Of a stretch of 64,000 nt of DNA, positions 7,325 to 57,737 are shown piece after piece. Under the pieces are notes generated by a model. The model ran no database searches, was not told where the DNA came from, and was given only the letters and a program-made list of their open reading frames with translations. The stretch is from Pagrus major (taxonomy: Eukaryota > Chordata > Actinopteri > Spariformes > Sparidae): assembly GCF_040436345.1 (NCBI RefSeq), contig NC_133219.1:23534709-23598708 (forward strand), given 5' to 3'. The translations under genes and the position numbers were made by a program. The stretch's first letter is position 1. Every line of letters begins with the position of its first letter.

Positions 7325-7361
<37 letters not shown>

Positions 7362-18724: not shown

Positions 18725-20295
18725 CTATGAGCCACAGGTGACACAACACTGTCTTTGGACCGACCTGAGAGAGCAGCGACCCAACAGCTTTAGCTTGTCA
18801 CAGAAGCGAGAGGACATTGTGTTCTTCCTGCAAACTGGACCTGCATGAGAAAGAATAGCCAAATTATTAAAATAGTAAAACCTTAAGAAGAAATAGATAC
18901 CATGATAGACTGTAGTTGCTGCAGATGGACTGAGCTTTGCATACAAACCTGCGTTGGTCTTGCATTCCTGCATATTGCACTTCCTGAGTGTTTCTGGTTT
19001 GGAAATCTTCTCACAGAGGCTGTTTGGCATTACAGCCAAATCCTGCTCACTTGCACAGTAGACTTCACGTTGCTGCTGACCCGCACCGCAAGTCACAGAG
19101 CACTGCAAAGTCACACACAAACAGAGTAATAATTCAGTCTATGATTATCACAACTGTCAGCCTAATCAATTTTGCAAACAAAAAACACAATCATCGTCGC
19201 TAATAAATCTCTGACTGACCTGCTCCCAGTCATCTGCCTTCCATTGCGTGCAGGGCTTTAGACTGCACGGCTCTGTGCTGTTTGGCCTCAGTGCGGTGCT
19301 ACAGCGATGAGGTGCGGGGCAGTACACCAGCCGCTCCCTGATGCCTTCACCACAGCTGCCAGAGCACTGAGGAAAACACACGGATTCAAGGGAGGTATCT
19401 GCTTTTCACTGAGACTGGAACAAAATCTGACCTCCCTACGTTTGGATCTGTATAATATGGGACATGACTGCGACAATATTCATAAATTTGGGAGTTGGGT
19501 GTGACTACACAGGTGATTTATCAGTTGCTGCTGTAATATAGTGGAGGCCAAAATGCAACCGAACAGCAATAATTGTGGTGAAAATGATTACAAGGAAATG
19601 GGATGAAATTCACAAGAATATGTTTTGTAAACACAGTAAAGGCACAGTTCCCCTAAATGATATAAACACAGGTAGGCAAATTTGTGAGGACTGTCTGCAT
19701 GGTTAGATGCCACTTCAGGTAAGACAGAAAATAAACATGTATATTTACGTAAACATATATGATACAAGTGTAATAAATAGAGATTTGATGTGTATAATGC
19801 TCCTACCGGTCCCCATGGTGATATACTCCAGGTCATGCAGGGCTTGTGGGGGCAGGTCAAAGTGCTGAGGGGTCTGCTGGCCACAGCTTGACAGTGGAAA
19901 GGTCTGAGGGGACGTTTACTCTGAGAATCGACACACTGCACATCGCGGTACCGCCTCCCCACCACCCCACAGGTATCTGGACACTGTGGAGATTATCACA
20001 GTGCAATAAATGGCTCAGAAATACATGACACGCATGAACTACAAACAGAAACAAACCAATTTAATCATCCAGCAGATTACGTATTACGTAAATTAACGAG
20101 TAATCACCTTCAGGGGAGTGGAGGAAATCTAACGTTACTCACCTTGCTCCAGCTGCCAGTTTGCCAGGTGGCACAGGGCTGCAGGTGACATGTGCGTGCA
20201 GGCTCAGGTCTCTTCATGCTGGCACAGTCGTCATCATTCTGGGAGCTGCACGCGACTGTTCGCCATATTGCTCCAATACCACATGTTGTTGAACA
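18725..20295 (-). CDS. adamts12: adamts12 exons 20-24: TSR5-TSR8 and PLAC domain
   Basis: Exons: 20295-20143, 19983-19807, 19366-19220, 19102-18949, 18840-18725. Each of the C-terminal thrombospondin repeats is cut at the same place, just before the first cysteine (…W..W..|C S/P…C G), with phase-0 introns, so TSR-sized exons line up as a repeated module. The starts after each junction are [24 protein letters not shown] and CSVTCGAG. The final exon is the PLAC domain ([20 protein letters not shown], then QCCVTCGS) followed by TAG at 18725. Confidence 0.94.
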
Positions 20296-23200
20296 CTGAG
20301 GATGGACAGGGGTATTTTCTCATTAAAACTCAGCTTTGGTTTAAGTGTGTACTTGGGTGACAAACTGATTATTCTGACACACAACAACCAGAAATTTGCA
20401 AAGGTTTTGCATGTTGGAGCCTGATGAAAGCAACTTCTGCAGCCATTTCTTAAACCACATGATGCAGTTACAGACAAAACAGCTGACTTTTTTATTGAAG
20501 AAATTATTAAATTTATATGATGAAATGACTTATATATAGGCTACTGATACTTCCCACCCAAATTTGCTCACTGTTGTCTTCAGTGTTTCCTGTTAACATA
20601 ATGCTTTTTGGCAACTCTGACCAAAACCTGAATATTGAAGCTTCATTCATCTTTCAGTCGTTTTGAGCCCTCACCAGCAAACAGGGCCGCAGCTAACGAT
20701 TATTTTTACTGTCGATTAATCAATCCATTATTTTCTTGATTTACTGATTAGTTGTTTGGTAAATGCAATGTCACAAAAAACTTAAAAAATGTCCATCAAC
20801 CCAAACGTGATGTCCTCAATGTCTTGTTTTGTCTGAAGACTTTCAGCTGATTGTCATAGAGGGATTAAGAAACCAGAAAATGTTCACATTTAAAAGGCTG
20901 GACTCACAGACTTGTAAAAAAAAAAAAAACTCAAACTGATTAATCAATTATTAAAAGAGTTGAGGATTACTTTAACAGCTGACAACTTTTGTTTTATTTT
21001 ACTAGGATAGGTTTGCATGCTTTAGTGCTCAAAAAACACATCAGTTTTCTCGTACTGTCCAGTGATCCCCATCTGTCTGAAACACCCTGTTTTAGTTCCT
21101 GTCTCTTTAAGGCCCCCTTTCCCGAATACCCGGTGTCATTTGATTGGTCAGCTCATGCACGCCTGAGCCAGCACCGCCAACAACAACACAGCAGCTGTGC
21201 TTAAATCAGGTTGTAGGTGCCAAACCAGCAGATAGGCATAAATGATGCAAATGTGAGACATGGTGACGTAGTGTGAATTAAAGGCGGGACTACTTTAGAA
21301 GGCATTACATTTTTCACAGTGATTATTTACAGTAAGATTATTTTTCATGTCTGTGCAGGTCAATTTTCAAAGCTTTCATTTTTATAGTTGTCATAGCATG
21401 CCTGGAGGGAAGGAAAACAATCTTCAGAAGTTATGGTATTCCTTGGAAAAAAGCCAGCATTAATGTCAAGTATGCAATTAAAGGCCTAAAACATGCATGT
21501 TTATTGGTATGGTGCTTTAGGGAGCAGGATGTCTGTACTCACCTCGCTCCAGTTTCCTACAACCCAGAATATATCCATGCTGACGGGCTCTCTGGCCATC
21601 ACATTGCTTTGGTCACTGGGGCTTTCTGTTTGCTGCTTTTGGCCCTTGGACCAGGAGGAGGGTTTTTTAGCACGAGAGACAGAACTGTTTTTCTTAGGTG
21701 TCACAGCAGCGGACTTCTTCAGTTTCATAATCTTCACTGTGGGTGTTGCTGCGGTGGTGAATGGTTTTCTCCCAGTTGTGGAAGGAGCTCGTGTTGTGTG
21801 GAAGCCAGCTGTCGATGGCAATGAACGGTCTCTGTACATGGGAGTGGTGAGGGGAACCCTGTGCGTCCAGTGGCTGTACGGGTTGATACGAGGGGTGGTG
21901 CGGGGGTAGGTGAAGGGATAGCGGTGAGTCGTCTTTGCCCATGTTTCAGTGCTGGTGTGTGGGGTGGAGTAGGTGGTGGCTTCTTTGGTTGTGTGTACGG
22001 TAGGTGGACTTGTTTGTAGAGTGGGTGTGATTAGTGTATTTGGTGTTGGTGTGGTCGATTTAAGCGGATTTTTGTGTGATGTAGATGTGGTAACATCCAG
22101 GTCAATAATCCCCTCCTCCTCCGTCGCCCTCTCCTCAACAACATAATCATATCCTGGAGTATACATCACCACATTTGGCGTACTTCCCTCCTCTCCCTCC
22201 TCCCTCTCTTCTACTTTTTCCGTTTCCACGCCAGTTGCTTTTCTGTCCTTGGCTTTAGATGTGAAACCTTTCCCTCTCTTATCCTCGTTTTCCCTCACTT
22301 TAACATCAAACTCATGATCGTCTGTATCTATGATTTCAGGGATTGTGGTTTTAGGGGTTGAGAGGGATGTGGTGGTCGGGATGAAAGCAGTTGTAGTTTC
22401 CTTGGTGGTCGTTTCCTTCCTCACAGTGATGGCTGCTGTGGGTGCAGCTGTGGTCGTGGTGCTCGTGGGTGCCCAGGTACCAGGATGCTTGGTGGGGTGG
22501 CTCTTAGGTGGGAAGATGCGGCGGTATTTAGGAGGAGGCCCGGGCCGTCTACGAAGACTTGAGTTCGGGCAGCTCTGTAGGCCACACAGCGATCTGGACC
22601 GAGGTTTGGTTGAGAGGTCGCAGGTCTTCTTGGGTGCCAGAGCACACGTGACTGTGCGTGAGCGGACACCTCCTCCACATGTGACTGGGCACTGCAAAGA
22701 TGAAAGAACACAAATGACTCATTAATTTAGAAAAGGTGGAAAAGCCCAAAGATTGATTAAAGCTACAGCAAAAGAGTACAATAAAAAAAGGACCTCCTCC
22801 CAGTTGCTGACAGCCCACTCCTGTCCACAGGGTATGTCTCTGTTGCATGGCACAATAGGTTTGGGTTTAAGGAGATGCTTGCACTCGACAGGATGGAGCA
22901 CCCTCTCCTCCCCTGACACTGTGCGAACACAGAGCACGGTTCGCTTCCGTACCCCCTCTGAGCCACAGGTGGATGTACACTGCTGCCAGCCACCTACCCA
23001 CCACCTGAGGAAGAGGGAATGAACAGGAAGAGAAATTGAAGCGAGAGATTGCTGATATAAGTGATTTGACTGCATCCCGAACAGAAATGTGGTAAGGAAA
23101 ATGGTAAGTGGACAATGTTCTCATCTTTATCTAACAATAAAGAGGGCTGGGTATGGTTTGAAAATGTCTGATATATTGCCAATATGTTTCCTGAGTTATG

Positions 23201-26200
23201 GTACTGAAACACGTTTTCCATTAACCAGATGAAAGGTGGCCAAACTTCTGAATTATACTTTAAAATAATATTAAGGTTATATGCAGTCAGGACACAAGAA
23301 CGTTTCCAATCTAAAATACTAAAACTGGTCAAATTAAAATCAGGAACTATGTGATCAAAGAATAAGAAAATAAGATTATAATTCTGACCAGGCCATTGAC
23401 ACAGACAATATGTTGGCCAAGCACATTTTGGTTCCATACCCAGCCCTGAAGATGAAGCAATTAGTTTCATCAGCTACATTTTTCCTGTTTATCATTACAA
23501 TGAAACCCAGGGGCCCATGGCGAGAGTGCAGTATCACTCTTGCAAAAAAAAAAAGGAAGATTAGGCAGTGAAACGAGTCCCTAACTAAAACCACAGTTCA
23601 GTGTGTTTTGACAGTACTGACAGTTAAAGAGCATTAGAGAGTAAGGACCTTGCGGGACAGTCAACAGTTTTGCATTTCCGGTGTCTGTCTTCTGGACGGC
23701 TCTCTGGGTCGCACAAAGACTCATCCACTACACCCACGTCCATCTCGAAACACCGCACAGGCTGGTGCTGCTCACCTAAAACAGCCCGCAAGTCAGAGAG
23801 AAGATGGCCAGGTCATTACTCAAATGTCATTGAAATCCTCCCCAACGAAGATATTTTCTTGTCAAGTCACTGAATGGTTTAGGCCCCAGAATACATCTCT
23901 GACATTCAGGTCAGCTCATACAGCCCAGAGGCCAAACTACACATGGTGAAGTAGTATTTAACTGCTATGCTGCATGCAACTGGAATAAACTGAACAAAAG
24001 ATCTTAGATTTGCACCAAATGTAGACATTTTTGGTCATTTGTTTTCTTTTACATATACTTCATATATAGATATTTATTTTGCTTTCATTAATATCAGGTG
24101 AACTGAATTGCCCCGTGTATAAAATGTGCTTTGCTGCTAAACGCAACACCAACCTAAGCCGCAGGTGGTGCTGCAGTCCGTCCACGCCCCGTGTCTCCAC
24201 TTGTAAAGGGGTTCGATGACCTCATTTCCTGTCTCTTTGGTCTTCTTGATGGTGTACTCGTACTTTATACCTGGGTTCTTCTCCTGAAACAGCAACTGGA
24301 TAGGCAACCAAATGAATTGTTATGAAGAGTATCATTTTAAGACTTTCTAGACAACAACATGAAATATATTTAAAACATATATACCATATTATAAACACGT
24401 ATTTTTCACATTTTTATTAATTTGATTAGTATCTGGTGTTTCTGAACCATCCTGGGAAAACAATTGCTTACAGACATCTTCTCCTTCACCCAGAAACGTA
24501 CATTCTGTCATGGAAAACATACAAAGTTTGAATGCTCTGATTGGTTTACTATCCTTAAAGTTAGTCCCTTTTTTCTCTCCCCGACTCATTAAAATCACTC
24601 TACATAGACACTGGGAGAAACACTATATTCATCTCAGAAACTAAAACATTTAAAAAATTGTGAAAATGATACATGAAACCCCTGTAGATGGATATCCTAC
24701 CTGCAGCATGAGTGGCTGTCTGGTGGGTCCAGGAGCGGTGAGGTTCTCTATGTTCCCGCTGCGTTCGTAAAAGAACGTAGTCCCACCGGCCTCGTACTCC
24801 CCGTTCCACTGGATGATGTAGTTGCCGTTGAGGAAGTACTCCTCCGTCGCCTCGCTCCTCAGAGCCAGGAAGTTACCTGCCTCCTCCACTTCCTGCACCA
24901 GGATGTCCCGCGCCCCCTCAGGTATCACCCCCACGTCCGTGTACCCTGGGAGAGTCGGGAGGGGAGTCAGAGTCACAGCGAGGTAATGGATGGCCCACCA
25001 TGGCTGCTGCCACACTCACATCCAGACTACCAGACAGTCTCTCTCTGATCTTTAATAGAGGGTGGGCTCAGTCTGTGGGGGTGGTTGGCATGTGCGTGTG
25101 TGTGAGTGTACGTGTGCGTATTCGGCGTGGGGGGCACTGCCCTGTCTCTGTTTTTTATTGTGTTTGGATGGGGTAGGGGGGGGTCGCTGGATGGGGGAGG
25201 ACGAAAGCAGCTATGAGTAGGTCTCTGGAGTTTAATGATGTTTGTGGGAAGGTGTGTGTGTGTGTGTTTGTGCAAAAATGGGGGAGGTTTGCCCTTGGTC
25301 TAAGCCTTTTGAAGTCTTACACATCTGGGCTGGTTATCTGGAAAGGATGCTGTGCGGGGCAAACACACACACACAGACAGAGAGCGAACAAGAGAGGGGG
25401 AAGAAGGAGGGATGTTTTTATTGTTTTAGAGCCTCTTTCTCTATTAATCTGTCTTTGCCGCGTGTTTTTCCTGCATGAGTTATAAATCTCAGTGCGCAAA
25501 GACGTGCGTCTCTTTAGACGAAGGCAAACACGAGCCTGCAGACACACACACATCACACCAGCCAAGTACAGCAGGACAAACAGCTGCACAGTGTGGACAA
25601 GAAGGCTGCCATGACAACAAAGAAACAACACAATGGCGTAATGCAAATGAACTGTCCTGAAATGACTTACCGCCCGTAGTCATAAATTTGAATTCTGCAC
25701 TTTTTCACACTCTTCTCGCGGGTACATCAAAGCTTTCCCTCATTAATAGGTTGTCTGTTTTGTGTTACTTAAATGTTATGCTTGTATGATTTCTTATGTC
25801 TAGATTATTCAATTTGTTTCCAGCTGCTCCAACATGCCACGTGTTGGACTCACCAAAGCCTTCTCCTGCATCAAACGACTTATAGATCTTCTCACAGCTC
25901 GTGCCATCGCCCAAACACACTCCACAGCGATCCTCCACTGCGTTTGAGTCGATGCCATAGTCACAGCCCACCTCCTACAGACAAAATACACACACACATA
26001 CATATAAAAACACAACCACAGACACATTACAGAGTTAAATGAGATAAGAAGCCAATTATTTATAATTTATTCTAAAAGAGATTAAGATTACTTTTTCCCA
26101 GAACCCAAAGTGACATGTTTAAATTGCTTCCTTTGTCAACCAACAATCCAAAACCCAAACCCAAAGACTCTTCATTTACTATCATACATAACAAAAAAAG

Positions 26201-29200
26201 CAGCAAATCCTTATATTTAAGAGACTAGAACAGGCACATATTTGACATTTCTGCTTAAAAACTCACTGAAATGATTGATCGACTATCAAAACAATTGCAA
26301 ATAATTTTCTTTGGATCGTTGCAGCTCTGGTTACACTGCAGCTTGTCTCATACATCTTTGCTGCTCCACAATAACCCCTCAGTCTCTTTTAGTCTCTTAC
26401 CCAGCCACACTACCTTGCACACTCCGTTGACGCAGATGTTCCTGGACTTGTTGTTCATGAAGCACGCTGTCCCGTCCGTCACAGTGTCGAGCATCTTCTC
26501 CGAAAAGTACTCGCTGACTGGTCGGCAGTGTAGCTCACAGGGATGTACTAAAGATGGTTGAAGATAGTGAAAAAACAAGTGTTTCATTTAGTTTCATTCC
26601 CATGAAATGCTGAGCAGGAGCCCAGTTAACTGTTAATAAGTGCTGGTAAACTGGTTGTGCACTTTAAAAGGTGCAATGTGTGAGAATTGGCCACTTGTTG
26701 AATTCATACTCAAAGCAAATAAGGAGCAGAGTAACTGCTAACTGCCTCTAACTGCCGCTGCTTTGAGCTAGTTAGCTCAATTAGATGTGCAGCTAGCGGT
26801 CCGGACTGGGAGCTGTGTTGGGGTTTACATCAATGGGACGGGCTGGGGCTAGCCAGTTAGCATGCTAACTTCTCTGCACCACAATAAATAGACGCCATAA
26901 TGTCAAAACTGTTCACTTCACATTCTGTCATTCTGATTTTATCTAAGAAAAACTGACTAATCCATAATAATGGCATGTTATTTAATTTCTTTTCTATTCT
27001 TCATACTTGCTTTGTATCATATTGTTTTGTTCTTCTTGATACAGAACTGTTTCAATTTGTATTTTTGTAGATTAAATTAGGGCTGCACGATATGGAAAAA
27101 AAAAAGCGATTATTTTGACAGAAATTACGATTGTAATATGATTCATAATTAGTGGGAAAAATTAATGTTCCCATCCCAGTTTAAATTTCACTGAAAAAAC
27201 TACTAATATCATGATGGTGTGATATTTGTTGGGGTTTGTATCTGGAGAACAACATCTGTACGCTCGGGCATCTCTACTGCACAACAGCATTTCATATAAT
27301 GCTGTTTTTCCACACATTTTAGCTTTATCAAAACATTGCCGCTTCTGAGATTTGGATTGCACATTTGTCCATATTGGGATTTCAATAATGCTTCAATTAA
27401 CTGTGCAGTCATAGTTGAAATGCTGAGAAGGACTCCAGAAAGACTTGCAACCACTCTGAGGATGCTAATGGGGTCCCATTATGACTGCATGTGCCCATTT
27501 GTTGTCTTTATGCACATGCTTATACACTGTGTAACTGTCTACCTCAGTATGTATGAGTGTATGTGAGTAGCGAGTGAATATGAATGTATATTTTTCCATC
27601 CTTTCTTTGTTTAAATTTTGTTTTCTTATGACAATGAAGCCTGTGAATCCTAAAGATCAAAGATTAGAGCCCGACTATCTAGGATGGATGATTATGACGC
27701 ATACTTTTCATTGATGACAAGACATTTTTGGAACTCTTTTAGTTCAAACAAACCAAAATCACCTAATGAGCACAATGTAAAAGATCCTGAATTGTATTAA
27801 TACATTGTATGCCCCTGCTAAAGTGCAGTAGCTGCATCAATGAGGGCTTTCCAATGTAAATGCTGCCCCCTGTTGCGCAACATGCAAAATCGCAACTTCA
27901 GATTTTCTGTGATATGAAAAGGGGAAGTGCATAAAAGGGTTTCTAACACGTGTGTCTATCTGTAGTTATTGTATATTTGAGGCTTTGACTACGTACATGG
28001 GTTAGCCACAGGAATCCACGTGTAGAGCTCATTGTGATAGGGCACAGTGTCAAATTCACTGCACAGCATCTCTCGAAAGGTTGGTGTATTCTTCTGACAG
28101 GGTTTTGTGTTACACGTCCGATACCGCTTCCTCTCCCCTGTGCAGTACTTGCCCCCAAACTCTGGTCTGTGGAGAAACAGTGGCATGCTTTGAATCAACC
28201 ATGTGATCAGTTTCAGGATGTCATCTGCTGTGGAAAAACATGCCAATGAACTGCAAAGAAGGTTTCATTAAAAAGTCTTACTTAGGGTTGTTACATTCCC
28301 TCTCTGCAGACTGAACTCCAGTTCCGCAGGTCCTGGAGCAGTGAGACCAGGTGCTCCACTGCCCCCAGCCTCCGTTCACCGTCTCTGGGAGCTTACCCAC
28401 AATCACACACTCTCCTGAGATGCACCACTGAAGGAGAAAATTGATGTAAGATTACTCATATAAACACCAGTAATATGACACATTTAACATTCAAGGCTCC
28501 TCATGTCTGTAGAGATAACCATCTCAATCCCCAGGCTAATGAAATCCATACCACAACGAGACAAAGCAGCTGTCGCCACCCACCTTCTCTGGTCCACAGC
28601 GAGTGCCGTCTATAGGCGAGTCCAGTTTGGAGCGACAGGAGCCGTTCACTGAACACCAAAGAATCTGGCAAACGTTCTGAAAGAAAGACGTAATCCAATG
28701 AGAAAAGGCCTACTTTCTAAAAGATTTCTGATGTTCAGGTGGACAATACTCACATCAACTTCGTGGCAGAATGTAGCGTTCGGGCCATACTGGAGCTGGC
28801 ACTGGTGGTGTGTGGTGTAGCGCACACCGAGGCGAGCAAGTGGGGTGGTCAGATCCCTCTTGGATGGACGGTCGTCCAGGCAGAAACCCCAGCCGCGACT
28901 AAGACAGACACACAAAGATGTGATGGTGAATGTGTGACCTTTTGATAAAGAGAAAAGAGAAGGGTGGTGGAAAGAGAGAAACGAAAAGAGAAAACTTGAA
29001 AGGCCAACAGAATAAGACTTCAGCAGGGAGGAGCTTGTTTGAGATAAATCCTTGCTTGTGGCTACGAGCACGCTTTGAACATTTAGCAACATTTTCACCT
29101 TCTCCTTCACTTCGCAGTCTCCTTGTCGAGGATGAAATTAAAAAGAGTGCTGGGAAAACATCAGAATCTGAGAAATGACTTGCTAATTGTTGACTCACAG

Positions 29201-32200
29201 GTCGAAGTTCAACAAAAATGTACTCTGACCTCTGACTGCACGAGCTTAAAGGTTCATAAAGGAATCACAGAAGTCAATAGAAATAGAAAATAATGAGCAA
29301 AGAAAACAGGGTGTGACCGCTCTCTAACGCTCCTTTAGGCTCTTCTTGCTGTTTTTGCTGGAATTTTTTGGCTTCAAACGAATTATGCTCGTTCAGCATG
29401 TTTTCATGTCTTTGTTGCTCTTTTAAAGACTCTGTCCGTCATGGTTTGCTTCTCATTAATGTTTGTATAACTTGTTCCAACATACACCGCACCCACTGCG
29501 TTTTTTGGATCATTTTCACCACCTCCATTCAAATCTACACCAGCATCCATCAAAAATCACTGTGGTTTGAAATTATTCCCATTTTCACCATCATTTCACA
29601 ACCCCAGCAACCCACGCAGTTTGCAGTCAACTCGAGCATTCACCACCAAGGAAAAAATAGCGTTAAAGCTGAGTGAATCATTTAATCATTTAATGAGCAG
29701 AAGGTACTAATTCATTCTTACTCCAGGAAGCGTGTGATGTATTCCTTGGAGCAGGAGGACCAAGTGAGAGGCGAGCTGTCGTACATCAGCTGTCTGGACA
29801 TGATGAACGGGTGCCTCCCCTCCAGCTCACAGTCGTTCCCCTGGCCGTCGTGATGGATCCCGAAGCTGTGTTCAAACACGACCAACACGACCAATTATGG
29901 TATTATCATTTCACAAAGAACTGTTTCACAAGAGCACATGGTCTTCAGGTCTGCTCATGATGAAGTGCTCTTGGATCAACAAAAAAGCTGATTGTGCCTC
30001 TGGACAAACAACTTGTGAATTTCAGCAGAGTTCAACAGCGATGTGTCCCACTTCTGTTGTACAGACAAGTAATACATTTGCTTTCGAATCTGAATTGGTT
30101 GAACTTTGATGAATTTGTACACGTTTTACATTGATTCCTTTTAGTACAATGCAGTGAGCTACATTAATTTCTTGTCCAAACAGGATACTGCCAAGATTTG
30201 TACAAAATTTATACAGTATATTAGTAATACGACTGTATATAGTGTGGGTTTGGTCTCAGCTCAGGGGTTTAGGAAAATAACTTTACTGATTTGCCTGTTT
30301 TTCTTTACTCATTCATCTATCTGAGCCATATGCCTCCTGGCTCTTTCAAACGTAACTCAAAGTTGAGTCTGAACCAACTTTTTCAATATATTTTCGGAAA
30401 CTGGACACTGAAGCTACAACTAAACAAAACGTATAGAAGTAGAAAAATGAGTCTTAAGCAGTGGTGGAATGTAACTAAGTACATTTACTCGTGAACTTGT
30501 ACTTTACTAAGTTTTTTTCTTATCACGCCATTAACTTTTGGTTTCATGTAACTAAATGATGTACACCTACACCACATCACTCCTCTCAGGTATCAGTCTT
30601 TTTTATGTCTGGTTACAAGATACAAGTGATTATTGGCATGCAAACAATTCACTAATGGGCTGGTGAGCCAATGGAGATTTAATTACACAACTGTATATTC
30701 CTCTATAGTAACTGATCACACACACGCACAGACCTGTGGCCCATCTCATGAGCGACGGTGAAGGCGACAGGTAGTCCTGAATCCTCATTGATGTTGCAGC
30801 TGCGGTGTGGTTGACACATCCCAGACAGATGAGACAGACCGAGGGTCTCACAGGGCTGGTTCATTCCAGCACAGATGTCTTTTCTGGGGAGAAAACACAG
30901 GCAATTGTATGTACATGACACCATAAGATAGCCTAGAGTATACAATTTATCCATTTCATTTGAGTTATGTAATGAAATTGCTGCCAAATTCATGTGTGGG
31001 TCACTTGCCTGGTGATCAACACAGCCACGTCATGATGAGCTGGGTGTGTGTCGCTCTGGGGGTTGAGGTTTTTCTGCCAAGCACAGAAACTGGCCAGAGT
31101 GGTGTCTGCGTGGTGAACGATCTTCAACCCTTTCTGCAACAAACAGCAGAATTAGACACATCGCTCACATTTTTGGCATCATTTGGATTTTTTACAGCTT
31201 CAGATTAGCTTGGGGAGTTTTCATCAACTTCAGTGTGAGCTCAAGGCCACAATGGACAAAACTAGTTTGCCTTTTGACTCTCCCACTTTACTTCACCTCC
31301 ACTGCATGCTCGCTTCTTGTTCCAACTGCAATATATGTTTTCCCAATGCTAAAATCACATCAATGTTTCTTGAGAAAACTCTGTTGTTACCTCCTCTCCC
31401 TGTAGTAGAATGAGGCGAACCAAGATGACGTGGATGGCATTCCCAATACTGGCATCATGAAAGATCCCAGCCACCTGTCGACACAGAAGTCATTCACTAC
31501 TCGAAGTGTTTTAAAACATCTGTGCAGAAACTTTGAGAGCAAACAAAACGAGTAAAGTCAACTCTTAACTCCTCACCATGTTCATGATGGTGAAGATGTA
31601 GGACTCCACATTATCGCTGCCGTGGTACTCGATGAGTTTGGAGTCAGCCACCACCATGGTCTCCACCCAGCGCTCTCTGCTGACTGAGCGCTGTGACCGG
31701 GACTGAGGCTGATCCTCCCCCATCTGCTGCTCCCTCTCCCATTCCTCCCTCTCCCCCTCCACCTGGACAGAGTCGCTGAGAGCATCTACAGCACGGACAA
31801 TGGAAGAAATCACACTACACTTGTGGCTTATCCTCGCTTGACACAGAATACTCACTTGAGTACACTTACACAAACATCTGCAGTACTGTACACATACATT
31901 CAGATACACACCTTGAACTCCACAGGGGCTGGGTGTTTCTCTGGACTCTGTGCTACGTTTTGTTCTGTGATTTTCTGGAGTAACTCTTGGATAGACAACG
32001 TGGGGCTCTGGAGTCTCTGCAGGATCATCAGGAGACTTCTGGACAGGTTCAATGAAATAGTGTCCTTCTGGCAGGGAGAAGAAGCCTCTCTGAGGAAATG
32101 AGAAATGAGAAACAGATGAATATGCATTGAGTAGAAATGATTGAGTTTTATCGATCAGTCCAAATCCTGGACTCTTTGGTCGCCATCTAACTAAAATCAC

Positions 32201-35200
32201 ATTTGAAAATTCACACAATTTTAAATGATATCAGGTTTCTGATCAGGGCATAGCACCGTATCCGCCACTCTGAAAGTCATTGATGATATCGAAGAGGCCA
32301 TGGACAACACACTCACTTGTGTGACTCTGTTTATAGACCTTTCAAGTAGATCCTGAGATCTGTGCTTAGAAGAAGTCTTTGAGAGTATGGGTTAGGAGCC
32401 TACTCGTCTGGCCTTTTTTTTAAGTGCCCTTAAATGTTGTACCAGCTGCTGTAGTTGCTTGTGAAGTTTGGGGACTTGCCATTCAAACACCCGTTTGCAG
32501 TGAGTGTCCATGTTTTTTAGAGCAAATGCACTGGATTGAAAGTTGGAATACCGACTCAGAAATTCCAACTTCCGACTTGCAATGGAACGCACCAATACTA
32601 TTTACAGGTTTGCCTCACCGTCCACCTCATCCAAACTCGACATCCTGTATCACTCAGCCCAAAGGTATTCTATTCCTGACTAATTCTAGCTTTTGGACCC
32701 ATCACTGTACTTTATACAACATGTGGGGATGATCATCCCTCACTTTGCGTAGGCTACAACATTGGTACATCTTAATCTACAAGGTTATTTTAGGCAAATT
32801 TCCTTCTTATCCTAGTTATCATAGTTAAATAAAGGTTATATAAACACAGGCAAATTTGAAAAATAGGACAAATCTACCCTGTCTCAATTATGAGGGAGAA
32901 GGCGTTCTGCTCAGTCTCAGCTCCAAATTGTAATCAAGATTAAAAAGATTATCTTTTTAGCCCAAATTCTTGCCTAATGCAGATTTAAGTCTCTTTTGTG
33001 ATGTCGTGCATTCTTAGACTGTGACTAACAGTAACGAGCATGCTTTTGTGTTATAGTTTCAATGATTCCTGCACTTCAAAGGTGAGAGGTTGGACTTTCT
33101 CTTGAAAAGCCTGCTGAAAAGGTCACTCCTCCATAATTTCCATCGTTAGTCAACAGATCTTAATATGAGCCTTCCTCCTCCCCTGGGGCACATTCTCTGT
33201 CGGCTGCAGCAGCAATACAGAGACTTTTCACTAAGTATGCCATGCATGTTCTTACTGGTGCAGACTATTTACTGGCTGATCGGTGAGATTTCCCAGTGAA
33301 CGCACACACAGAACCACGCCTCCACACACAAACACATGAAACATGCATGCAAACACACAAAAGAGGCTTCTGTCAAATCTCCTTCTAAACACACACATTA
33401 TGAATGTTCCACCTCCAGCTCGCTGTTTGCAAGTTCTATTCATTGAGGCGATTGTGTGTGTGTGTAAAACGTGTGTGTCTGTGTGTGTGGGTTTTATGTC
33501 AAGCTGAGTCCAAACAAGCCCAGACTGTTCTGGGATGAACCCTCCCTCTCCCCCTAAACCAACTTGCAGAAGACACAAAGAGAGCAGGATGCGTGATTCT
33601 TTCTGGAGCTAAATGGAAAAAGTGCAGCTGAGTAAAAATAATCTCAACCTGTTTTTCTTTTACTTCAGCAGTAATTTTTACATGTTAAATTGTCAATGCA
33701 CATGATTTAACACATCCAGGATTACACAAACAATTGACAAAAAATCCCTTCACATGCCCCTGTAATGCATACTCGCCAACTCTCCCGATTTTTACACTGT
33801 GCACCTCATCCTCCTCAGTGAGTAAGAGATGGACAGACAGATGAAGAAGAGAAAGAAATACTCAAGCAAATTTCAGACTTCCTGGAAAGAAGACTTCCCA
33901 TTTCTTGCAAAAAGTTGTAAAAGAAAATTGCCGATTTTTCCATAAATCATCAGGGGTCACACGGATGTCAATCACCGTAGGCTGACAAACATGAGTTGCA
34001 AGATTTAAAAGTCAAATAAAAATAATTTAACATAAAAATTCTGCAGTATTTTTTTTTTTTAGTGTCATTCTGTAAAACTCGCCAGGATGCAGGAAACTCA
34101 AAGATCCCTGCTTTCATTTCAAAACTCCTCCCTATTTCTGAGGTCTCAGTGTTGGCCTCTTCTGCTCTATTGAGTCAAACAAGTCCAACACGAAGAATTC
34201 TCAGAAGATGATTCCTGCGTCTGATTCTTGGCTCTCTTCTCTGTGTTTGAGCAGCAGATGTAAAAAATTAGGCCATGCAGCGCTTACAGTTTGGCCAGTT
34301 GTGGTTCCAAGGGTCTACCCTGCTGTTTGCTGCAGTTACGCACTGTTCAGCTTTCTGGGTCATCCCCACAAGTTTTACATGTGGTTCTTGAGACATGTGT
34401 TTCAACCACACTCACTGAGTATCCCATTTCTCCACTCAGGGAGTTCAGAAAGTACAAATCCAGAAGAGTGCTCCACTTGGAGAGACTACATTACTCCACC
34501 TGTTACACTAAACCTTGTAAAATAAGATGAAGCGTGCAAAATCTGGTCTCTGTAGGACACAGCTAACCTCCTCAGGCTTGCTTTTTCCCATGTAAAGAGC
34601 AACAATAATGTTGCAAATGATAAACAAAAATCCTCTGTATATGTTTGTTTTGGTTAACTGAGATTAAACAAAGCATTGAGAAAGGGTTTTTTTCAGTGAC
34701 TCAGAGCATGGCCTTGAGCCAGGGGTCCCTGAGCTGTGGTGGACTCATCCACAAAGCATGCAGGCTGATACAGTATGTCTACGGTCAGCTGGGAAAGCTT
34801 CCCAGAGGCCCTGTGCAGAGAACACTCAGCTGATTTCACTGTTGCTCCGTGTCTCATCCTGCATGATTATCACTCAACATGATTGAGATTTGTCTTTGCA
34901 TTTGCATCATCTCACTGCATTACACTTATGATGCACATAAAGGTGAAGCTTTAGGCGGATTCTTTGCTATTCTCTGTTATCGTGCCTCCTTGTCATCTCA
35001 TATGTTTTCCCAAACATTAAACTTCCAAGCGAGTCCTAGCAGAAAAAAAAGCAGGTGGCGGAGATCAACCAAGAAGGAATGCTACAGAGAGGCCCATCCA
35101 AACATCCAGACCATTGCTCTGCATGATCTGTATTATCTGAATACCAAATGCAGTCCCACTGTGCAACGCAGTCTGCAAGGCTTCGCTTGTAGAGTGTGGT

Positions 35201-49700: not shown

Positions 49701-50072
49701 AATCTGTGATTCAGAAACCAACCCATAATGCACATTCATATACAGTAATTGTATCATTATATCACAGCTGGTGAGTGAGAATCTTTCCATGGTTTCCAAA
49801 GATACGATTCTCCACAGAGGCACATGCAGTCCCTTAACTCAACGTCAGACATGAAAAACACCAAGACAACGTTTCAGCTTGCATGGATATGTATTGACAT
49901 TGAAGAGTGAAATAATTAGAACCACTCTCAGTTTGTCCCGTCTCCACCTGTCTGTCTCTGCAGGGATGGAGGCCTGAAGAGAGCCAAGGTGAAGGAGTCG
50001 TTTAAAGAGCAGCAGCAGAAGCAGTACAGCAGCATGGTGGTGGGAGACGACAGCAGCAGCAACAGTGACTGA
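44428..50072 (+). CDS. gpat3: Glycerol-3-phosphate acyltransferase 3 (GPAT3/AGPAT9)
   Basis: ER membrane enzyme that transfers an acyl chain to sn-glycerol-3-phosphate, making lysophosphatidic acid, the first step of triglyceride and phospholipid synthesis. Thirteen coding exons: 44428-44571, 45435-45501, 46791-46939, 47054-47199, 47305-47379, 47490-47579, 47662-47755, 47846-47961, 48341-48396, 48606-48691, 48808-48936, 49064-49143, 49964-50072; total 1341 bases, 446 aa (human GPAT3 434). The acyltransferase motif NHTSPID has H238 and D243 (HX4D), and FPEGT is at 310-314. Hydrophobic spans lie near residues 12-34 and 150-190. The N-terminus (FSLGISETYMTILVKTLEWAT) fits GPAT3 better than GPAT4. 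A GTG nine bases upstream is in frame, but ATG 44428 (GAAGATGG) is the natural start. Intron 2 ends in an 80-base TG repeat directly at the acceptor; introns 1 and 12 carry TTAA-flanked elements. Confidence 0.95.
45042..45340. mobile_element. TTAA-flanked miniature element in gpat3 intron 1
   Basis: Begins AGGAGACCTATTATGC and ends GCATAATATGTCTCCT, with TTAA on both sides (45038-45041, 45341-45344). A 299-base relative of the element at 17318-17805, in reverse order internally (for example GCGCCTCATC/GACATCACACTACATCACCATGTC reads as the complement of the other copy's TGACGTAGTGTGATGTC region). Confidence 0.8.
45537..45560. repeat. (AGAT)n tetranucleotide repeat
   Basis: Six AGAT units just downstream of gpat3 exon 2, in intron 2. 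Confidence 0.95.
46707..46787. repeat. (TG)40 microsatellite abutting a gpat3 splice acceptor
   Basis: About 40 uninterrupted TG units followed only by TTAG and then the first base of gpat3 exon 3 (46791). The normal pyrimidine tract is replaced by the repeat. It is the longest microsatellite in the window and likely length-polymorphic. Confidence 0.97.
49240..49698. mobile_element. TTAA-flanked miniature element of a second family, gpat3 intron 12
   Basis: Starts AGGGACAGTTC and ends GAACTGTTCTT, with TTAA at 49236-49239 and 49699-49702. It is 459 bases with no coding capacity, and its interior is unlike the 17318 family, so it is a distinct TTAA-targeting element. Confidence 0.7.
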
Positions 50073-50423
50073 GATCCTCACCCAGCATGCTGTACAGATC
50101 CCTGTTTTTGGAGAATGTACACAGGAAACAGGCCACTCTCCTCTAGTATGTTCCCATTAGCTGGATACTTTCAGGGAGTACTGCCAAGTGGACTTAAACA
50201 CAATGTGAAACCTTAGGTACAGCTAAGAGGAGGAGATTCTCAGTGATTCACAGCAAACACAAGTGCAATATGAACTTTATGAGAAGCTGAGCTGAGCTCT
50301 CTGTTTTAACCGCTGCTGAAGATACCGTAGCTACTGTTTTGATTGAATGATAATGCTGAGATAATGCTCTGAATGAAATGTGTGATCGCAGACAAACCAC
50401 TGGATCCATGAATGTCTCTACTC

Positions 50424-50880
50424 CAGGGGTATCTGACATCGCCGTGTTGGTGTTGTTCCTAGAACATCACACTTCATGTTGCTCCAGGACCATCCTCTCA
50501 AATTATGAAAATCCATATCTGGAGCAAGCCGCCATGGCTGAATGTGTTAGGTGTAGGACTCTCACTCAGGAGACGGGTTTGCATCACATTTGAAACATAT
50601 CTTTATACTGTTCACTTATAATTTTACACTAAGTTCATTTATTATTTTCCACTTCTTTTCAGTTTTCTGTCACTGGTTGGTTAGGTTTAGGAAAACATGG
50701 TTTGGGTTCAAATAGACACTTTCACCAAGTTGAACAAATGTTAGAAAGGATAACTTTACTTCATTTCTTTTTCCCGGATTACAAAACATGACTGGTCCGT
50801 TGCAATGATGGTCCAGGAGCAACATTAGTAATGACAGTCCAGGAAAAACACCAACACGGCGATATCAGACAGAGCCCCTA
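50424..50880. mobile_element. Inverted-repeat element inside the gpat3 3' UTR
   Basis: Arms at 50424-50495 and 50806-50880 are reverse complements of each other, including the near-perfect block ATCGCCGTGTTGGTGTT and TGTTGCTCC.GGACCATC. The 310-base interior is unrelated. It lies after the gpat3 stop (50072) and before the probable poly(A) signal (50928), so it is probably transcribed and can fold into a stem of about 70 base pairs. Confidence 0.75.
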
Positions 50881-50927
50881 CTCTCACAGTCAGTTGACTC
50901 ATTCATGTGCTGTTCATTGTTTTTTTA

Positions 50928-50933
50928 AATAAA
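50928..50933 (+). terminator. Polyadenylation signal of gpat3
   Basis: AATAAA after a T tract, about 855 bases beyond the stop. It is followed by a T-rich stretch (ATTTTGTTTAC). It is the first canonical plus-strand hexamer I noticed in the 3' region. Confidence 0.55.
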
Positions 50934-51036
50934 ATTTTGTTTACAATTTTAACGCCAACAGTGTGATGATTCAATACCAAAAAGAACCTGGAGGTAGATG
51001 TACTATTTTATAACATGAAATGGCATATATTTTAAT

Positions 51037-51921
51037 AGGGGTGGGAATCAGAGGTTAACTCACGATACATTACTAGTACGATATGTTGCTCATGAGATGG
51101 CATCACGACATGGCGATTCTGTGAAACTTGTTACAAGAAGATCATCTAACAATACGTCACGTCGTTTGTGTGTAACTGAAGAAGAAATATACCGCCTAAA
51201 AGGCAAAAAGCAGCAATTATGTGTTAATTTACTGCATTGTGGTGTCTTTTTCACAGAATTTGAAATGGACAAAAAAAGAGTCTTAGCTTAGTGTCTTAAA
51301 CACACACTGAGTGCAACTTGTCCATTTAAAAAAGCCATAAACAGGCACAAGCCCAAACTGCTAGAAATAACAGCAGCTTTGGAGTTAAAATGTTTAAAGG
51401 AAGGACACAACTATGGCTCACTACCATTGTTTCAATCTGTGTAGATTAAAAATCCCCCCAGGCTTTAATGAAACCCCTGAAAACTCATCTCTGTTCCTCA
51501 AAATTACATATTTGGAAGATTTTTCCATGAAAAAAAGCCCTTCTTGGGTCCAAAATGGCTTCGACGTAACTCTACTACCATGGCTCATTAAGTATTCAAT
51601 GATCTAGTGATATGCAAATCAGCCAGACTCTTGCTCCGCCCTGATCCACAGCAGCTCGATGTACCTGCTCACTCACACACCTTTGACTCTGTCACCAAAC
51701 TCCTTTTTCCCTGTTTTACCAGCTCTGTCTGTCTTTTACAATGGGAAATTGTAATTCTGGAGTTCTTCAGTCATTTAGTCAAGTCAAACTGACAGGTGAA
51801 TCTGTTAGGAGTGCCTGCATGCTTTGTTAAAAAGATCGATACTTGGCACCAGTGTATCAATAATGTATTGTAAGAGGAAGGGATATGATATATTGTGGTA
51901 TCATTATTTCATCCCACCCCC
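51037..51921. mobile_element. Decayed DNA element with GGGGTGGGAA-type ends
   Basis: The left end AGGGGTGGGAATCA with CACGATACATTA and the right end AATAATGTATTG..TTTCATCCCACCCCCT form a loose inverted pair about 880 bases apart. This end sequence is common among fish hAT-like elements. No transposase frame remains. It fills most of the gap between gpat3 and the small gene at 52.3 kb. Confidence 0.5.
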
Positions 51922-52317
51922 TATTATTTAATATGTTTGATGGATTCAAAGAGAGAAATACTGAGATATTCATGATTTAAGTATTTAAATATTTGTTTTA
52001 TATATTTAGATTTTGCAGTGTTACACTGCAACATAATTAACACTGATAAGCACCTATGAAACACAGTTTCCAGTCAGGAGACAACCAGTTTGAACAATCT
52101 TAGATTATTGAATTTAACACTGATAGACATTTAGCTTTGTTTTCAAGAAAGGAAACTTTTTGCAAACTGTCTTTAGTAATCCTTGACCCCTCGCTATTTT
52201 TTCACACAAAGGTAAAGCATGGACACAAGAGACCCAAAGGTTTGGCACTTAAATAATGCATGAGAAGGTTGAGTGTGAAAGCCCAGTTCATTCATGTCCA
52301 CATGAGATGTGACGGCC

Positions 52318-53716
52318 TTAAAGGATGACACACAGCGGAGACTTTTTAGATCTCTCTCCACCAGATGGTTTTCCTGCAGTCGGACCCTCACTGCCGCCAT
52401 TTTCCTCCGGGTTCCCCTCTTTGGTCCCTTAAAAGCAAATTAAAGACAGACTTCACTCACTGTGACTGTGTGAATGTTGATGCTGTTGCTTTGTTTCAAA
52501 TTGTCAGCGTCCTCACCATCATTCTCCTGATCAGTCAGATCTGTGTTGTCCTGCGTACTCTGTGTAAAAACAAACATCACTTAATCACATGAACGACATC
52601 TGTCACATCAGCACATTGTGTCTGACAGCCTCGAAACCAATCAGTTATGATGGCAGCACTTACCTGCAACAAGTTAGTTTTGTTTTTCTTTCTCTGTTCC
52701 AGATATCTGCAAAAATCATCAACAATGCAAAGAAGTTTACATGCAATTGCCAAGAAACTCAGCTGAGTCTGGTTTATCTACAATGATGACAGCCAGTGTG
52801 TGTGTCGCAGCTTTCCTTGAAATGTGACTTCCTGTCTCTTTTAGTGAACTGGCCAGGAGAGACTAATGGTCCAGTCAAATATTTATGAGCCTGATTAGTG
52901 CCTCACATCTGTGTCTCCCTCTGCACAGTTCAAATGACAAACAGGTTGCAGCTGATTCAGACGCTGAGCTGCTTTTATCTCTCAGCAATAAAAGCCAATA
53001 AAGCTGCTCTGCAGCAAATCCTCTGTTTGTATTCTGTTAGTTTCTACATTCAAAACAGCCATGGCTGTAACAATCTGTCATCACACAATGTCTTGTGTTT
53101 CTTCAAGGCTATGATTTTAAAGTTGTGTTAGTTTCCTTTACTTATGCGTAGCCATTATTTAATTTTATTTGATTATGCTGGAAAACTGGTGAATGACTGG
53201 TCTTCTCGATAACAGGGATAAACAAACACAATTATAGATTGGGCCTTTAACAACAGCTTTTATTTAATCGTTAAAATCAACATGATAAAACCAAACTATT
53301 ATGAACTTTCTTAAGATGTGGAATTTCCTACACTGCCATCCTGTAATGTGCTTTGAATGTAAAGTACACAGTAAATTCTCTGTGTACTGAAAATTCACAG
53401 CACTACTGATGCAAAATGAATCTATTACATTTAAAATACTGGTTACATTTGAGTACACGTGTGCAGTAATCTAACCCACCGTTGCAGATAAGAGTCATGG
53501 TTCCTGTTGGCAGGTTTGGTCTTCTTCTTCAGTCCATCTGGTGTCCACGTTGTGCTTGTATCTACTCCTACATCCACCCTGCCTGCAGCTCCAGATGCAA
53601 TAGGCATTTCTGCCAGGAGGACTACAGATTTCAGAAATCAAACATAAACTCACAGTCATTTGGATGCAACTTGCAGAGTTTCACAAACTCCTCCTCGAAC
53701 TCCTGTTGTTGACTGG
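52318..53716 (-). CDS. Unrecognised small gene with C-terminal CaaX motif (5' end unresolved)
   Basis: Not recognised. Five exons on the minus strand join in perfect phase: 53716-53654, 53621-53480, 52706-52664, 52559-52517, 52427-52318 (63, 142, 43, 43, 110 bases), each with canonical AG and GT borders. They encode at least 132 residues: an acidic start (QQQEFEEEFVKLCKLHPND), a middle with TSTTWTPDGLKKKTKPANRN and a helical basic stretch (YLQRYLEQRKKNKTNLLQ), a low-complexity Gly/Glu/Ser tail, and the end SKKSPLCVIL then TAA. CVIL is a CaaX box, Leu-ended, predicting geranylgeranylation, with a basic stretch before it, so membrane attachment is inferred. The first exon is missing: an ATG in strong context (GCCATGG, 53775) lies in a different frame from the first exon shown, and that exon has its own good acceptor. 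It could be a real gene with an unseen first exon, or one with an assembly indel. It sits between gpat3 and myl7. Confidence 0.6.
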
Positions 53717-53964
53717 CTGTGTGAGCAGGAAAATGTGGCCGTGGAGTTTATGGAGGTGTTTGTTGTTGTATCCATGGCAACAGTCTCTCAAAAGAATTGA
53801 ACAGCACTGAGGCCTCTGTGAACGGGAACCACTGACGTCCTCTTTATTTATCTGTAAAATGTTTAGAAATAGTCACATGTGCCTTCACATGTAGTCCAGG
53901 GAAAATCTCGGATCACAAAATCTTTTACCAACCAAGAAGAAACTACTTTGTATTAGTTATCTTA

Positions 53965-54090
53965 AGCCGCGTTTCCATTGCAGGAACTTCACTCAGAGAC
54001 TACGAACCTTAGCCCAGCGCGTTTCCACCACAGGGACCAGGGTCTTAAGTAAGTTCTGGGAACATTAATTGTACCCTCAAAAAGTCCCTG
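53965..54090. repeat. Repeat fragment of the 'GCGTTTCCATTGCAGG' type
   Basis: GCGTTTCCATTGCAGGAAC and, 65 bases later, GCGTTTCCACCACAGGGACC, with AAGTTCTGGGAAC, resemble a widespread fish DNA element. No gene is visible in the rest of 53776-54640 apart from possible 5' sequence of the small gene. Confidence 0.5.
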
Positions 54091-54648
54091 TTCAGGTGGG
54101 GTTTGCAGAACTCAACATTGTTGATTGGTAAAGTGCTCACAGCATTTTTATTTCAGCCACCATTTCTTTTCTCAAATCTGCTGCTGCAAACCAGTTATTT
54201 GTTTGTTCATTGTGCTTGTGCCATCAGCATGGAGTTACAAATGAAGGCGTATGGCAGATGGGCTGATGCCATCATTGTTGTATAGATGTGTGCAAAAATC
54301 ACCAGAATAAAAGTACGCTAAATATGCAGAAAGATTAAAATTACAGTAGGAAAAGAATTAGTACTATAACAATTATTTGTAAGCTTAAAATGACCAGTTA
54401 GTTTATCAAACTCTGCTATTCTCTCCTTTCCTTTACATTAAATTACTAAAGTTACACATTTCTTGGTGAGTTACGTTAAACTTAATTAAACAATCAAGGA
54501 TACGTCATTTTCCTGTGTGTGATGTTCATATTTTTTTATTTTGGCAACACAGCCATGGTAAGGAGTTTTTAGTCTTATTCTATATGCAGCATTGCTGAAC
54601 AAAATGAGCATTTGAAATCAACGAAGAAACTTTCGAGGAGCCCAATAC

Positions 54649-54654
54649 TTTATT
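54649..54654 (-). terminator. Polyadenylation signal of myl7
   Basis: AATAAA on the minus strand (GGAATAAAG), about 155 bases after the myl7 stop. The spacing suits a compact 3' UTR. Confidence 0.6.
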
Positions 54655-54805
54655 CCTAACAGCATACAAACAAATGAGCCGATTTTTCATACCATTAGAA
54701 TTGCAGCAGATAGTCATTCATGTTGTTGGATGAAAACCAGCCTGTTTAAATACAGCTATCATAATGTTCAGATGACCTGACGACACTGTAGGATTACAGT
54801 CCTTG

Positions 54806-56595
54806 TTAGGATTCCTCCTTCTCATCTCCGTGTGTGATGATGTAGCAGAGCGACTTGTAGTCGATGTTGCCAGTCGGGTCAATGGGAGCGACAGCGAAGG
54901 CCTGATCCACCTGGAGGTTTATAAAATGACTGGTGAAAATAATCATTTTAAAGAATAGCTCGAGAGTCTGTAACTATAAAAATAGAATAGACAAACCTCC
55001 TCTGCTGTGAATTTATCAGCCTGGTTCATCAGTAGTCGTCTAAACCTGGATAAACATGACAAGAGGAAGTGTAAGAGGAGAGGAAAAAATTAAATACTGT
55101 AATTTCACAGTGAATAGAGCTAACATGAATGCTAAGTAATAAAACTGATCTTACTCATCCTTGTTCACAAAGCCAGTCGCATTGGGGTCAAAAAGCTTGA
55201 AAGCAGCAAGTATGGTTTCTTCAGGGTCAGTACCTGGAGGGAAACAAAGCATCACAGAGCATCTCCTGAAAGTTCATCAAAGAAAATTTAAAGATTCATT
55301 AGCTCATGATTTGATCTGAAAGGCTCTCACCATTCAGTTTCTCCCCAAATAGACTCAGGAACACGGTGAAGTTGATGGGACCCTTCCCCTCATTCAACAT
55401 CTCGTCCAGCTCCTCATCTTTGACGTTAAGCTTCCCTGGTACACACACACACATCAACATCATGGTCATCATCTATAGAGCATTTAAACAGATTAAACAG
55501 ATTAAAATGTAAAAGTAAAGAAAATACCCAGCTGTCCATAGGTCTCCTTCAGGTCCTGTTTTTTGATAACACCATCTCTGTCTTGGTCAATGCAGCCAAA
55601 AGCCTGTAGGCACAAACAATAATAATGACAAACAACTAAATCAAAATAGAAATAGACAGAGTAAGACAATAGATAAAATAGAAAATAGACACCTTTTTCA
55701 ATCGTTTAAACTTCTTTCTTTTGCATTACATGTTTTTACAAATGCAGGCTGATTATTATTCACTTTGATAGAAATGCTGAAAATGAGGTATTTTACTATG
55801 CACAGCTCACAATAATAATGTTTTCCTTGACCAAATGTAAGAATATGTTGAATTGCATTTAAGCCTTTTCTTTTTTCTCACTGACTAACAAGATTAGCAA
55901 GGGTTAAAAGATATGTTAATTTATTTTAGTGTAATATTTGCATTGTATAATCTGTACATCAAAATTGTATTTATTACATCAAAAAAGAGAATTCTCCATC
56001 ATTCACTATTGTTGTAAATTAAAGAGAGTATTGTTGCATTTATCATTTATTGTCATTTTAAGAGCCGTTTTTTAAATAAATGTATGCTTTTCATCCGTTC
56101 AGTTTGTGTATACGGTCACATCAACCATTCCTATACTGGTTAAGTTAACGAATGAAGGTAAATTGAATATTTCTCTTCCTTTTCATTTTACAATCAAAAC
56201 CGACAGATTCCTATGGAAATTTCCTACAAGAAAAAAGAGAAAGAAAAAGAGTCTTGTCCAGGCCGGAGAAGACACACTACTGCTGTACCTCTTTGAACTC
56301 CTGTATCTGGGACTGCTCGAACATGGAGAAGACATTGGAGCAAGCCTTCTGTCCTCCCCTCTGTCTCTTATTGGAGGCCTTCTTACTTGCCTGAGAAGAT
56401 GTACGCAAATACACTCAGTTTACACACTTACATTTTCTTTACTGCAGACTGTCAGTCAGAAGTGTACAAATCGCACAAAATACACAATAACCTAATTACA
56501 ACACATTAATAGATTCCAAAATTGTCTGTTTTTTCATTTTATGTCACCGCTGACTTAAAGTATTAAAAACCTGAAAACGCTGACTGACTTACCAT
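54806..56595 (-). CDS. myl7: Cardiac (atrial) myosin regulatory light chain 2
   Basis: Binds the neck of cardiac myosin heavy chain and tunes contraction; in fish myl7 (cmlc2) is expressed throughout the embryonic heart. Seven coding exons: 56595-56593, 56390-56289, 55603-55528, 55435-55331, 55233-55155, 55045-54997, 54910-54806; 519 bases, 172 aa, the usual length. Exon 1 contributes only the ATG. Near the N-terminus [19 protein letters not shown] carries the phosphorylatable Ser (residue 19). The first EF-hand loop [12 protein letters not shown] (41-52) keeps its Ca/Mg ligands; later EF-hand regions are degenerate ([12 protein letters not shown]), as normal in this family. The end, [10 protein letters not shown], is Myl7-like; MYL2 differs. 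The gck gene lies just upstream in the same direction, as in human. Confidence 0.95.
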
Positions 56596-56646
56596 GTCTG
56601 AGTGATCGTACGTGGACTCCCAGCCGAGGTGTGATGCTGGGGTGGG

Positions 56647-56688
56647 TTTTATGTACGGCCAATCTTATCTCCTGCCCTCCTATAATAG
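56647..56688 (-). promoter_or_regulatory. Compact cardiac promoter elements of myl7
   Basis: Read on the minus strand towards the ATG: CTATTATAGG (one mismatch from an SRF CArG box), AGATAAG (GATA factor site), ATTGG (inverted CCAAT), then CATAAAA (TATA-like) about 52 bases before the start codon. GATA and SRF-type sites are typical of cardiac myosin promoters, and short upstream regions of fish myl7 are known to be enough for heart expression. The site assignments come from motif reading only. Confidence 0.55.
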
Positions 56689-56699
56689 CCTGCGGTGGG

Positions 56700-57737
56700 C
56701 AGCACAGTCCCTTACATGGCCAAGGCTGTTCTCTGTGTGTCAGCGAAGGGACCTGATAAGAGGTGAAGCAGCCAGGATTCCTCTGGGCTGGAAAATAGAG
56801 ATATGAGGAGCAGAGAGGGAGAGAGGAGACAGGGCAAAGTGACCTCTGACATTTGACAGTCACTCGACCAAATAAAGTTTCTCCTCAGAGGTCAAATTTA
56901 GCTCAAAATGAATGTGTTATGTGCACTATTATAAAGATTTCAGTAACAGCATTGTGTGACGCTACACAGCAGGCCTTAAGCCTGATTTCTTATAAATATA
57001 ATAACTACCTGTTGCATATGAGATGATATAGGGACTAAATACTTTATGTAGTTCACTAGTTCTCTGATGGTTTCTATTTTCATATCATACCTTTCTCATT
57101 CTTAGTGCTATGACTGTGGACAAATAAATCAGCTGATATATTATCTAGGACAAACTGAATCGAGTAGAAATGTCACTTCTCTTCAGACTTATTAATATTA
57201 TTTTGGACAGCTTACAGTACATTGGTTGTGGCTAAATATTTTTTTCATTGGCTAAATAATGAGGCCATGGACCAAAATCACATGCTGAACAAAGAATCTA
57301 TCATTTCCAGCTACACCATGGTTTCCTTCCTCACAAGAGGCTTGACATTGTTGATGTGTAACTCCATAACCAGCATGTACATGGATTATATCTGTGAGAA
57401 CAGATTCATTTATACATCGTTGTTCTGGGTCCATTTTCAAGTGTGTTATAATAATAAAAGCACTTAAATCTTGTGAAATTATTGTTGCATTTACAGGAAA
57501 GAAGATTTTTATATTCAGGCTTGGTAGCTTTCACTCCTTTAATGTAATATTAAGAGGACAATTACACCTATATCACTTTGATTTTGTCGTTGTGTTCAAA
57601 GTGTTTTACATTGCTTGATAATGAGTATTGTTTTAATGTGGTAAGTATATTACATTACTTTAAAATTAAAATTGTTTTAATGTGTTTTAATGACAAATCA
57701 TACTTGTCAATCTAAAAAATATTATAACATTACTTTA
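56700..57737. other. Intergenic between myl7 and gck, no gene seen
   Basis: AT-rich. The part nearest 56700-56860 could hold further myl7 regulatory sites: it includes AAGGGACC and a CCTTACATGGC stretch resembling a CArG box. The rest shows nothing I can name. Confidence 0.45.

Follow-up and report, generated by a model that had tools for sequence, protein, structure and literature searches.

In the standard CaaX pathway, Rce1 removes -VIL from a CVIL end and Icmt methylates the cysteine. CVIL has the canonical CaaL form and is the C-terminal ending of MIEN1, and complexin-3/4 and the paralemmins are small lipid-anchored adaptors of vertebrates. In excerpts of the respective papers, CVIL is given as a canonical geranylgeranylated sequence, that of yeast Rho5 (PMC11304957) and as the CAAX motif of human UBL3 (PMC10511055), and geranylgeranyltransferase-I is named for MIEN1 (PMC6738349). 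An excerpt on the substrates of geranylgeranyltransferase-I (GGTase-I, GGT1) further states that serine or lysine is favoured near the cysteine, with more lysines at positions -1 to -7, and that farnesyltransferase, too, accepts CVIL in vitro (PMC1175975).

The locus described here lies in a window of 64,000 nucleotides from Pagrus major (the whole stretch of DNA that was analysed, C5:23534709-23598708; positions below are those of the window), in which the original prediction had drawn five minus-strand exons ending in CVIL. Judging from its sequence signals, it is probably a real small protein-coding gene on the minus strand, located between a GPAT acyltransferase gene and myl7/gck, whose product would be mostly disordered and geranylgeranyl-anchored. 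The candidate consists of an in-phase open chain of four spliced 3' exons terminated by CVIL, upstream of which we infer at least one further 5' exon carrying a start codon.

Setting and exon chain of the candidate

The following neighbours were found in the window, their names beyond the Pfam domain (gck, myl7, GPAT3/4 type, ADAMTS 7/12 type and FGF10-like, as well as the PAIP1-like gene mentioned below) being presumed:

62400-58743, minus strand: gck, with Pfam hexokinase
56595-54806, minus strand: myl7, with EF hands
ending at 50072, plus strand: GPAT3/4-type acyltransferase gene (gpat), with its Pfam domain
18725-32643, minus strand: 7/12-type ADAMTS gene, recovered as several partial predictions, with the Pfam domains Reprolysin, TSP_1 and spacer
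2983-8759, minus strand: FGF10-like gene, with Pfam FGF (E 3.6e-44)

Flanked by gpat and myl7, the candidate is convergent with gpat and follows myl7 downstream on the same strand. Elsewhere, the ADAMTS gene contains a long Thr/Ser/Pro-rich stretch near 22691-22095, and the flanking locus L019 contains a PAIP1-like gene. The features of the candidate itself are as follows:

53654-53716, minus strand: provisional upstream exon, 2 nt + SQQQEFEEEFVKLCKLHPND + 1 nt; acceptor 53716, donor 53654
53583-53653, minus strand: replacement intron of 71 nt, acceptor 53582, in place of the originally drawn 53653-53622
53605-53607, minus strand: alternative start codon of a 107-aa model (MPIASGAAGRVDV...CVIL) picked by the complete-gene finder
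53480-53582, minus strand: coding exon, C-RVDVGVDTSTTWTPDGLKKKTKPANRNHDSYLQR; most likely begins at acceptor 53582, or reaches up to ATG 53607 should no coding exon precede it
52664-52706, minus strand: coding exon, YLEQRKKNKTNLLQ
52517-52559, minus strand: coding exon, STQDNTDLTDQEND
52318-52427, minus strand: terminal coding exon, ending ...GGERSKKSPLCVIL-TAA
52321-52332, minus strand: CVIL codons, read directly; putative CaaL prenylation signal
51927-51932, minus strand: ATTAAA, the first poly(A)-signal-like hexamer 3' of the stop; a hexamer match only

As originally predicted, each of the four introns (last/first exon bases 53654/53621, 53480/52706, 52664/52559 and 52517/52427) is bounded by GT...AG, and the joined exons, read directly, run for 132 codons without a stop and reach CVIL-TAA after ...GGERSKKSPL. 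Introns 2-4 (773, 104 and 89 nt) are of normal size, above the bound of ~75 nt; intron 1 measures 32 nt, and the five-exon structure as drawn is unsupported.

The chain was scored with a gene finder whose splice matrices started from general vertebrate frequencies and were refined on 14 gck/myl7 junctions; its codon scores were derived from gck, myl7 and gpat (963 codons). The finder reproduces the hand-derived structures of gck and myl7 and returns gpat as two chains (3 + 11 exons), these same genes being its training data. Splice sites were ranked among the 232 GT and 251 AG sites of the minus strand in 54800-51000 (3.8 kb): the donors of the chain rank 1 (52664, 11.7 bits), 3 (52517, 9.5 bits), 4 (53480, 7.6 bits) and 13 (53654, 5.9 bits) of 232, and its acceptors rank 2 (53716, 9.2 bits), 3 (52559, 8.2 bits), 6 (52706, 7.1 bits), 9 (53582, 6.7 bits) and 13 (52427, 5.4 bits) of 251. 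Three of these five acceptors (53582, 52706 and 52427) are lower than all 14 gck/myl7 acceptors (7.3-14.7 bits). Coding scores were +9.1 bits for exon 52427-52318, +5.9 bits for 52559-52517 and -2.1 bits for 52706-52664, while exon 53716-53654 scored +2.3 bits in the chain frame and about -14 and -18 bits in the remaining frames. Exons 53582-53480, 52706-52664, 52559-52517 and 52427-52318 form the firmer part of the structure, and exon 53716-53654 is provisional. The GC3 of the candidate is 0.51, versus 0.62-0.65 in myl7 and gck.

First junction and start codon

The originally drawn intron 1 (53653-53622, 32 nt) was rejected: it falls below the vertebrate lower bound, its acceptor is weak and the gene finder never picked it. 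In particular, acceptor 53621 scores 1.8 bits, as compared with 7.3-14.7 bits for the 14 gck/myl7 intron acceptors (which also trained the matrix), and the excerpt of a survey places the vast majority of vertebrate introns above 75 bp, likely the lower bound (PMC9438311). Acceptor 53582 has the same phase as 53621 and yields the junction peptide HPND-C-RVDV; the resulting intron of 71 nt is slightly short of the usual ~75-nt lower bound.

The robustness of this junction was assessed under 20 settings (five intron minima x four codon weights). Acceptor 53621 was chosen under none of the 20, and the exon starting at 53582 was used in all 15 settings with the CVIL frame, i.e., all those with a codon weight above 0; under a codon weight of 0 (5 of 20 settings), the best chain lies in another frame and terminates before CVIL. 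When introns shorter than 72 nt were forbidden, the chain began at 53582 and the EFEEEF exon was lost, which lowered the score by 0.5 bits at weight 1. We infer that the true first junction is 53654/53582, with a 71-nt intron, or that the first coding exon begins at ATG 53607. Because the originally drawn intron spans only 32 nt and acceptor 53621 is weak, FLLAEMPIASGAAG is probably outside the protein, unless translation begins at ATG 53607. About 14 residues of the peptide first proposed are probably intronic, and the corrected junction matters for primer design and for searches for relatives.

The joined translation of the chain using the 71-nt intron contains no methionine. No convincing first exon was found in 58700-53780, where the ATG exons that match the phase of acceptor 53716 are weak, apart from those overlapping myl7 exons. 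Three candidates for a first exon did not convince: 54717-54693 is in phase, but position -3 of its ATG is a T and it lies ~90 nt beyond the myl7 stop; 54163-54141, in phase 2, would depend on acceptor 53712, which is weak; and the ORF of 39 codons that opens at ATG 53775 ends 2 nt before the provisional exon's last base. This ORF (53656-53775, minus strand, MDTTTNTSINSTATFSCSHSQSTTGVRGG...) shares sequence with the provisional exon and reads it in a different frame; its first 24 codons score -7.3 bits. The complete gene from ATG 53607 scores only 4.9 bits, within the range of predictions taken as spurious on both strands. The alternatives for the start are: i) ATG 53607, giving 107 aa; ii) an unrecognised first exon; or iii) a start that has been lost.

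CVIL end and predicted product

CVIL-TAA at 52332-52318 has the CaaL form of GGTase-I substrates. The preceding SGGERSKKSPL-C also resembles the linker described in the excerpt of PMC1175975 when compared by eye: it is hydrophilic, spans at most 11 residues and has lysines within -1 to -7. Direct reading (...GGERSKKSPL-CVIL-TAA) bore out the basic Ser-Lys-Lys-Ser patch noted ahead of the CVIL end. For the small membrane-anchored protein that had been proposed, the CVIL end and a linker fitting GGT1 substrates (as characterised in that excerpt) hold, whereas the acidic start EFEEEF rests on the provisional exon.

By chance, C[AVILM][AVILM]L occurs right before a stop at 16 of 27,331 stops (window plus 20 loci), and three CaaL ends, the candidate included, precede stops on the minus strand of the window. 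The CaaL end is independent support for the gene, though it may also have been what drew the original prediction to the locus.

GGTase-I would geranylgeranylate the CVIL cysteine of the cytosolic protein, after which Rce1 would cut off -VIL and Icmt would methylate the cysteine; the lipid together with the basic RSKKS patch would produce a peripheral membrane protein. In its predicted body, a stretch that is basic and may be helical (YLQRYLEQRKKNKTNLLQ) precedes a linker that is rich in Gly/Glu/Asn and probably disordered, and a product built in this way would serve as a small, largely hydrophilic adaptor tethered to the membrane, not as an enzyme.

Chance, homology and rival explanations

Among chains with three or more introns in 54800-51500, the CVIL chain scored best, at 7.4 bits, while the antisense strand gave -8.3. 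This score was reached by none of 100 order-1 shuffles and none of 300 order-2 shuffles (shuffle maximum 0.6). Moreover, of 14 further pieces taken locally from the window (both strands of 7 intervals, some overlapping), 11 scored 0.9 or less, and the three that exceeded the candidate all overlap gpat. On the other hand, among 108 pieces taken from 18 further 10-kb loci of the genome, 11 matched or exceeded the chain score; the window's six flanking loci (L014-L019) do not enter this count, nor an 84-piece count, and with them included and the later C8 loci excluded, 23 of 120 pieces reached the score. Among the 11 high-scoring control pieces, four hold a Pfam domain above cut-off (FAK FERM, SAM, oxysterol-binding and laminin G) and seven do not; two of the 11 control chains contain a stop codon split by a junction, which the gene finder ignores. 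Since that many genome pieces score as high, and only 4 of 11 with a Pfam domain, the chain score alone has a substantial false-positive rate, and sequence signals are no proof of a gene. The earlier assertion that chance agreement of phase is unlikely was too strong, because the splice sites were freely chosen: the chain beats 300/300 order-2 shuffles, yet real pieces of the genome match it.

Searches for relatives agreed with the earlier view that no family could be matched: Pfam profiles gave nothing beyond a chance match (12.5-12.8 bits, E 0.12-0.15) and the PDB gave no significant match (best E 0.25). Absence from Pfam and PDB is weak evidence for an orphan. No relative was found in viral and prokaryote contigs, and Rfam over 50000-57000 returned nothing at E 0.1 or better. 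Searched against its own genome (785.9 Mb, 25 contigs), the candidate DNA matched only itself and is therefore not a dispersed repeat, at the sensitivity of a same-genome DNA search. With the originally drawn chain as query, the own genome returned its own exons and five weak matches (E 0.45-10). The one at C8 21.08 Mb (E 0.45) was judged chance, the surrounding 40 kb having been read; local tblastn of these 40 kb with gck, myl7, gpat and the corrected chain gave a single 14-residue chain match (E 0.73). Those on C4 and C15 (E 0.6 and 2) contain stops in their frames and were likewise judged chance, and the remaining two were on C12 (E 4.4) and C22 (E 10). Literature searches on gck/myl7 neighbours and on CVIL, geranylgeranyl and zebrafish yielded nothing, nor did one on uncharacterised prenylated teleost proteins among the matches listed.

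A chance chain, in which non-coding DNA happens to offer plausible splice sites and a fortuitous CVIL ahead of a stop, is somewhat unlikely. It would fit the 11 of 108 same-genome pieces that score as high (7 of the 11 without a Pfam domain above cut-off), a start codon and a homologue not found in the searches made, the weak codon signal of exon 52706-52664 (-2.1 bits) and the fact that three of five acceptors score lower than any of the 14 known ones; possible selection by the original prediction, with three CaaL ends on the minus strand of the window, points the same way. However, the score was reached by none of the 300 and 100 shuffles, three of the top four donors (of 232) fall into one phase-consistent chain, and the 11 local pieces outside gpat score 0.9 at most. 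Splice sites that outdo the codon signal, together with the lack of a convincing ATG exon, could also mean a spliced lncRNA with real splice sites and no translated product, or a decaying gene whose start exon has been lost; we consider this very improbable, as the frame stays open over the junctions, the two 3'-most exons score +5.9 and +9.1 bits as coding sequence and the C terminus looks functional.

The reading preferred here, a real small protein-coding gene, is compatible with a further one that concerns its name and not its reality, namely that the chain represents the 3' portion of a vertebrate gene family already known and annotated elsewhere. This is quite possible, if short of probable: the searches were confined to Pfam, PDB, the collections of prokaryotes and viruses, and the own genome, and Pfam misses many short disordered vertebrate proteins, but what Pfam gave was only the chance match at 12.5-12.8 bits (E 0.12-0.15). 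Under the preferred reading, the candidate would be a CaaX-type protein, a known kind for which no family was found, and a name or locus number for it may exist in fish proteomes. That it instead belongs to a fish-specific family of short, intrinsically disordered, geranylgeranylated adaptors, encoded between gpat and the cardiac gene myl7, appears quite unlikely; such a family would have escaped annotation because every exon is ~140 nt or shorter. If real, the candidate would be an unnamed small lipid-anchored protein beside the well-studied myl7 and gck and an example of short-exon genes escaping annotation, with the broad picture unchanged.

Compared with complexin-3/4 or the paralemmins, the candidate is alike in general layout only, with no sequence match in Pfam or PDB. 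Unlike the CVIL proteins UBL3, Rho5 and MIEN1, it has no ubiquitin-like, thioredoxin-like or GTPase domain in the Pfam and PDB searches; on the other hand, it has in common with UBL3, yeast Rho5 and MIEN1 the C-terminal CVIL and, ahead of the cysteine, a flexible hydrophilic linker containing K/S.
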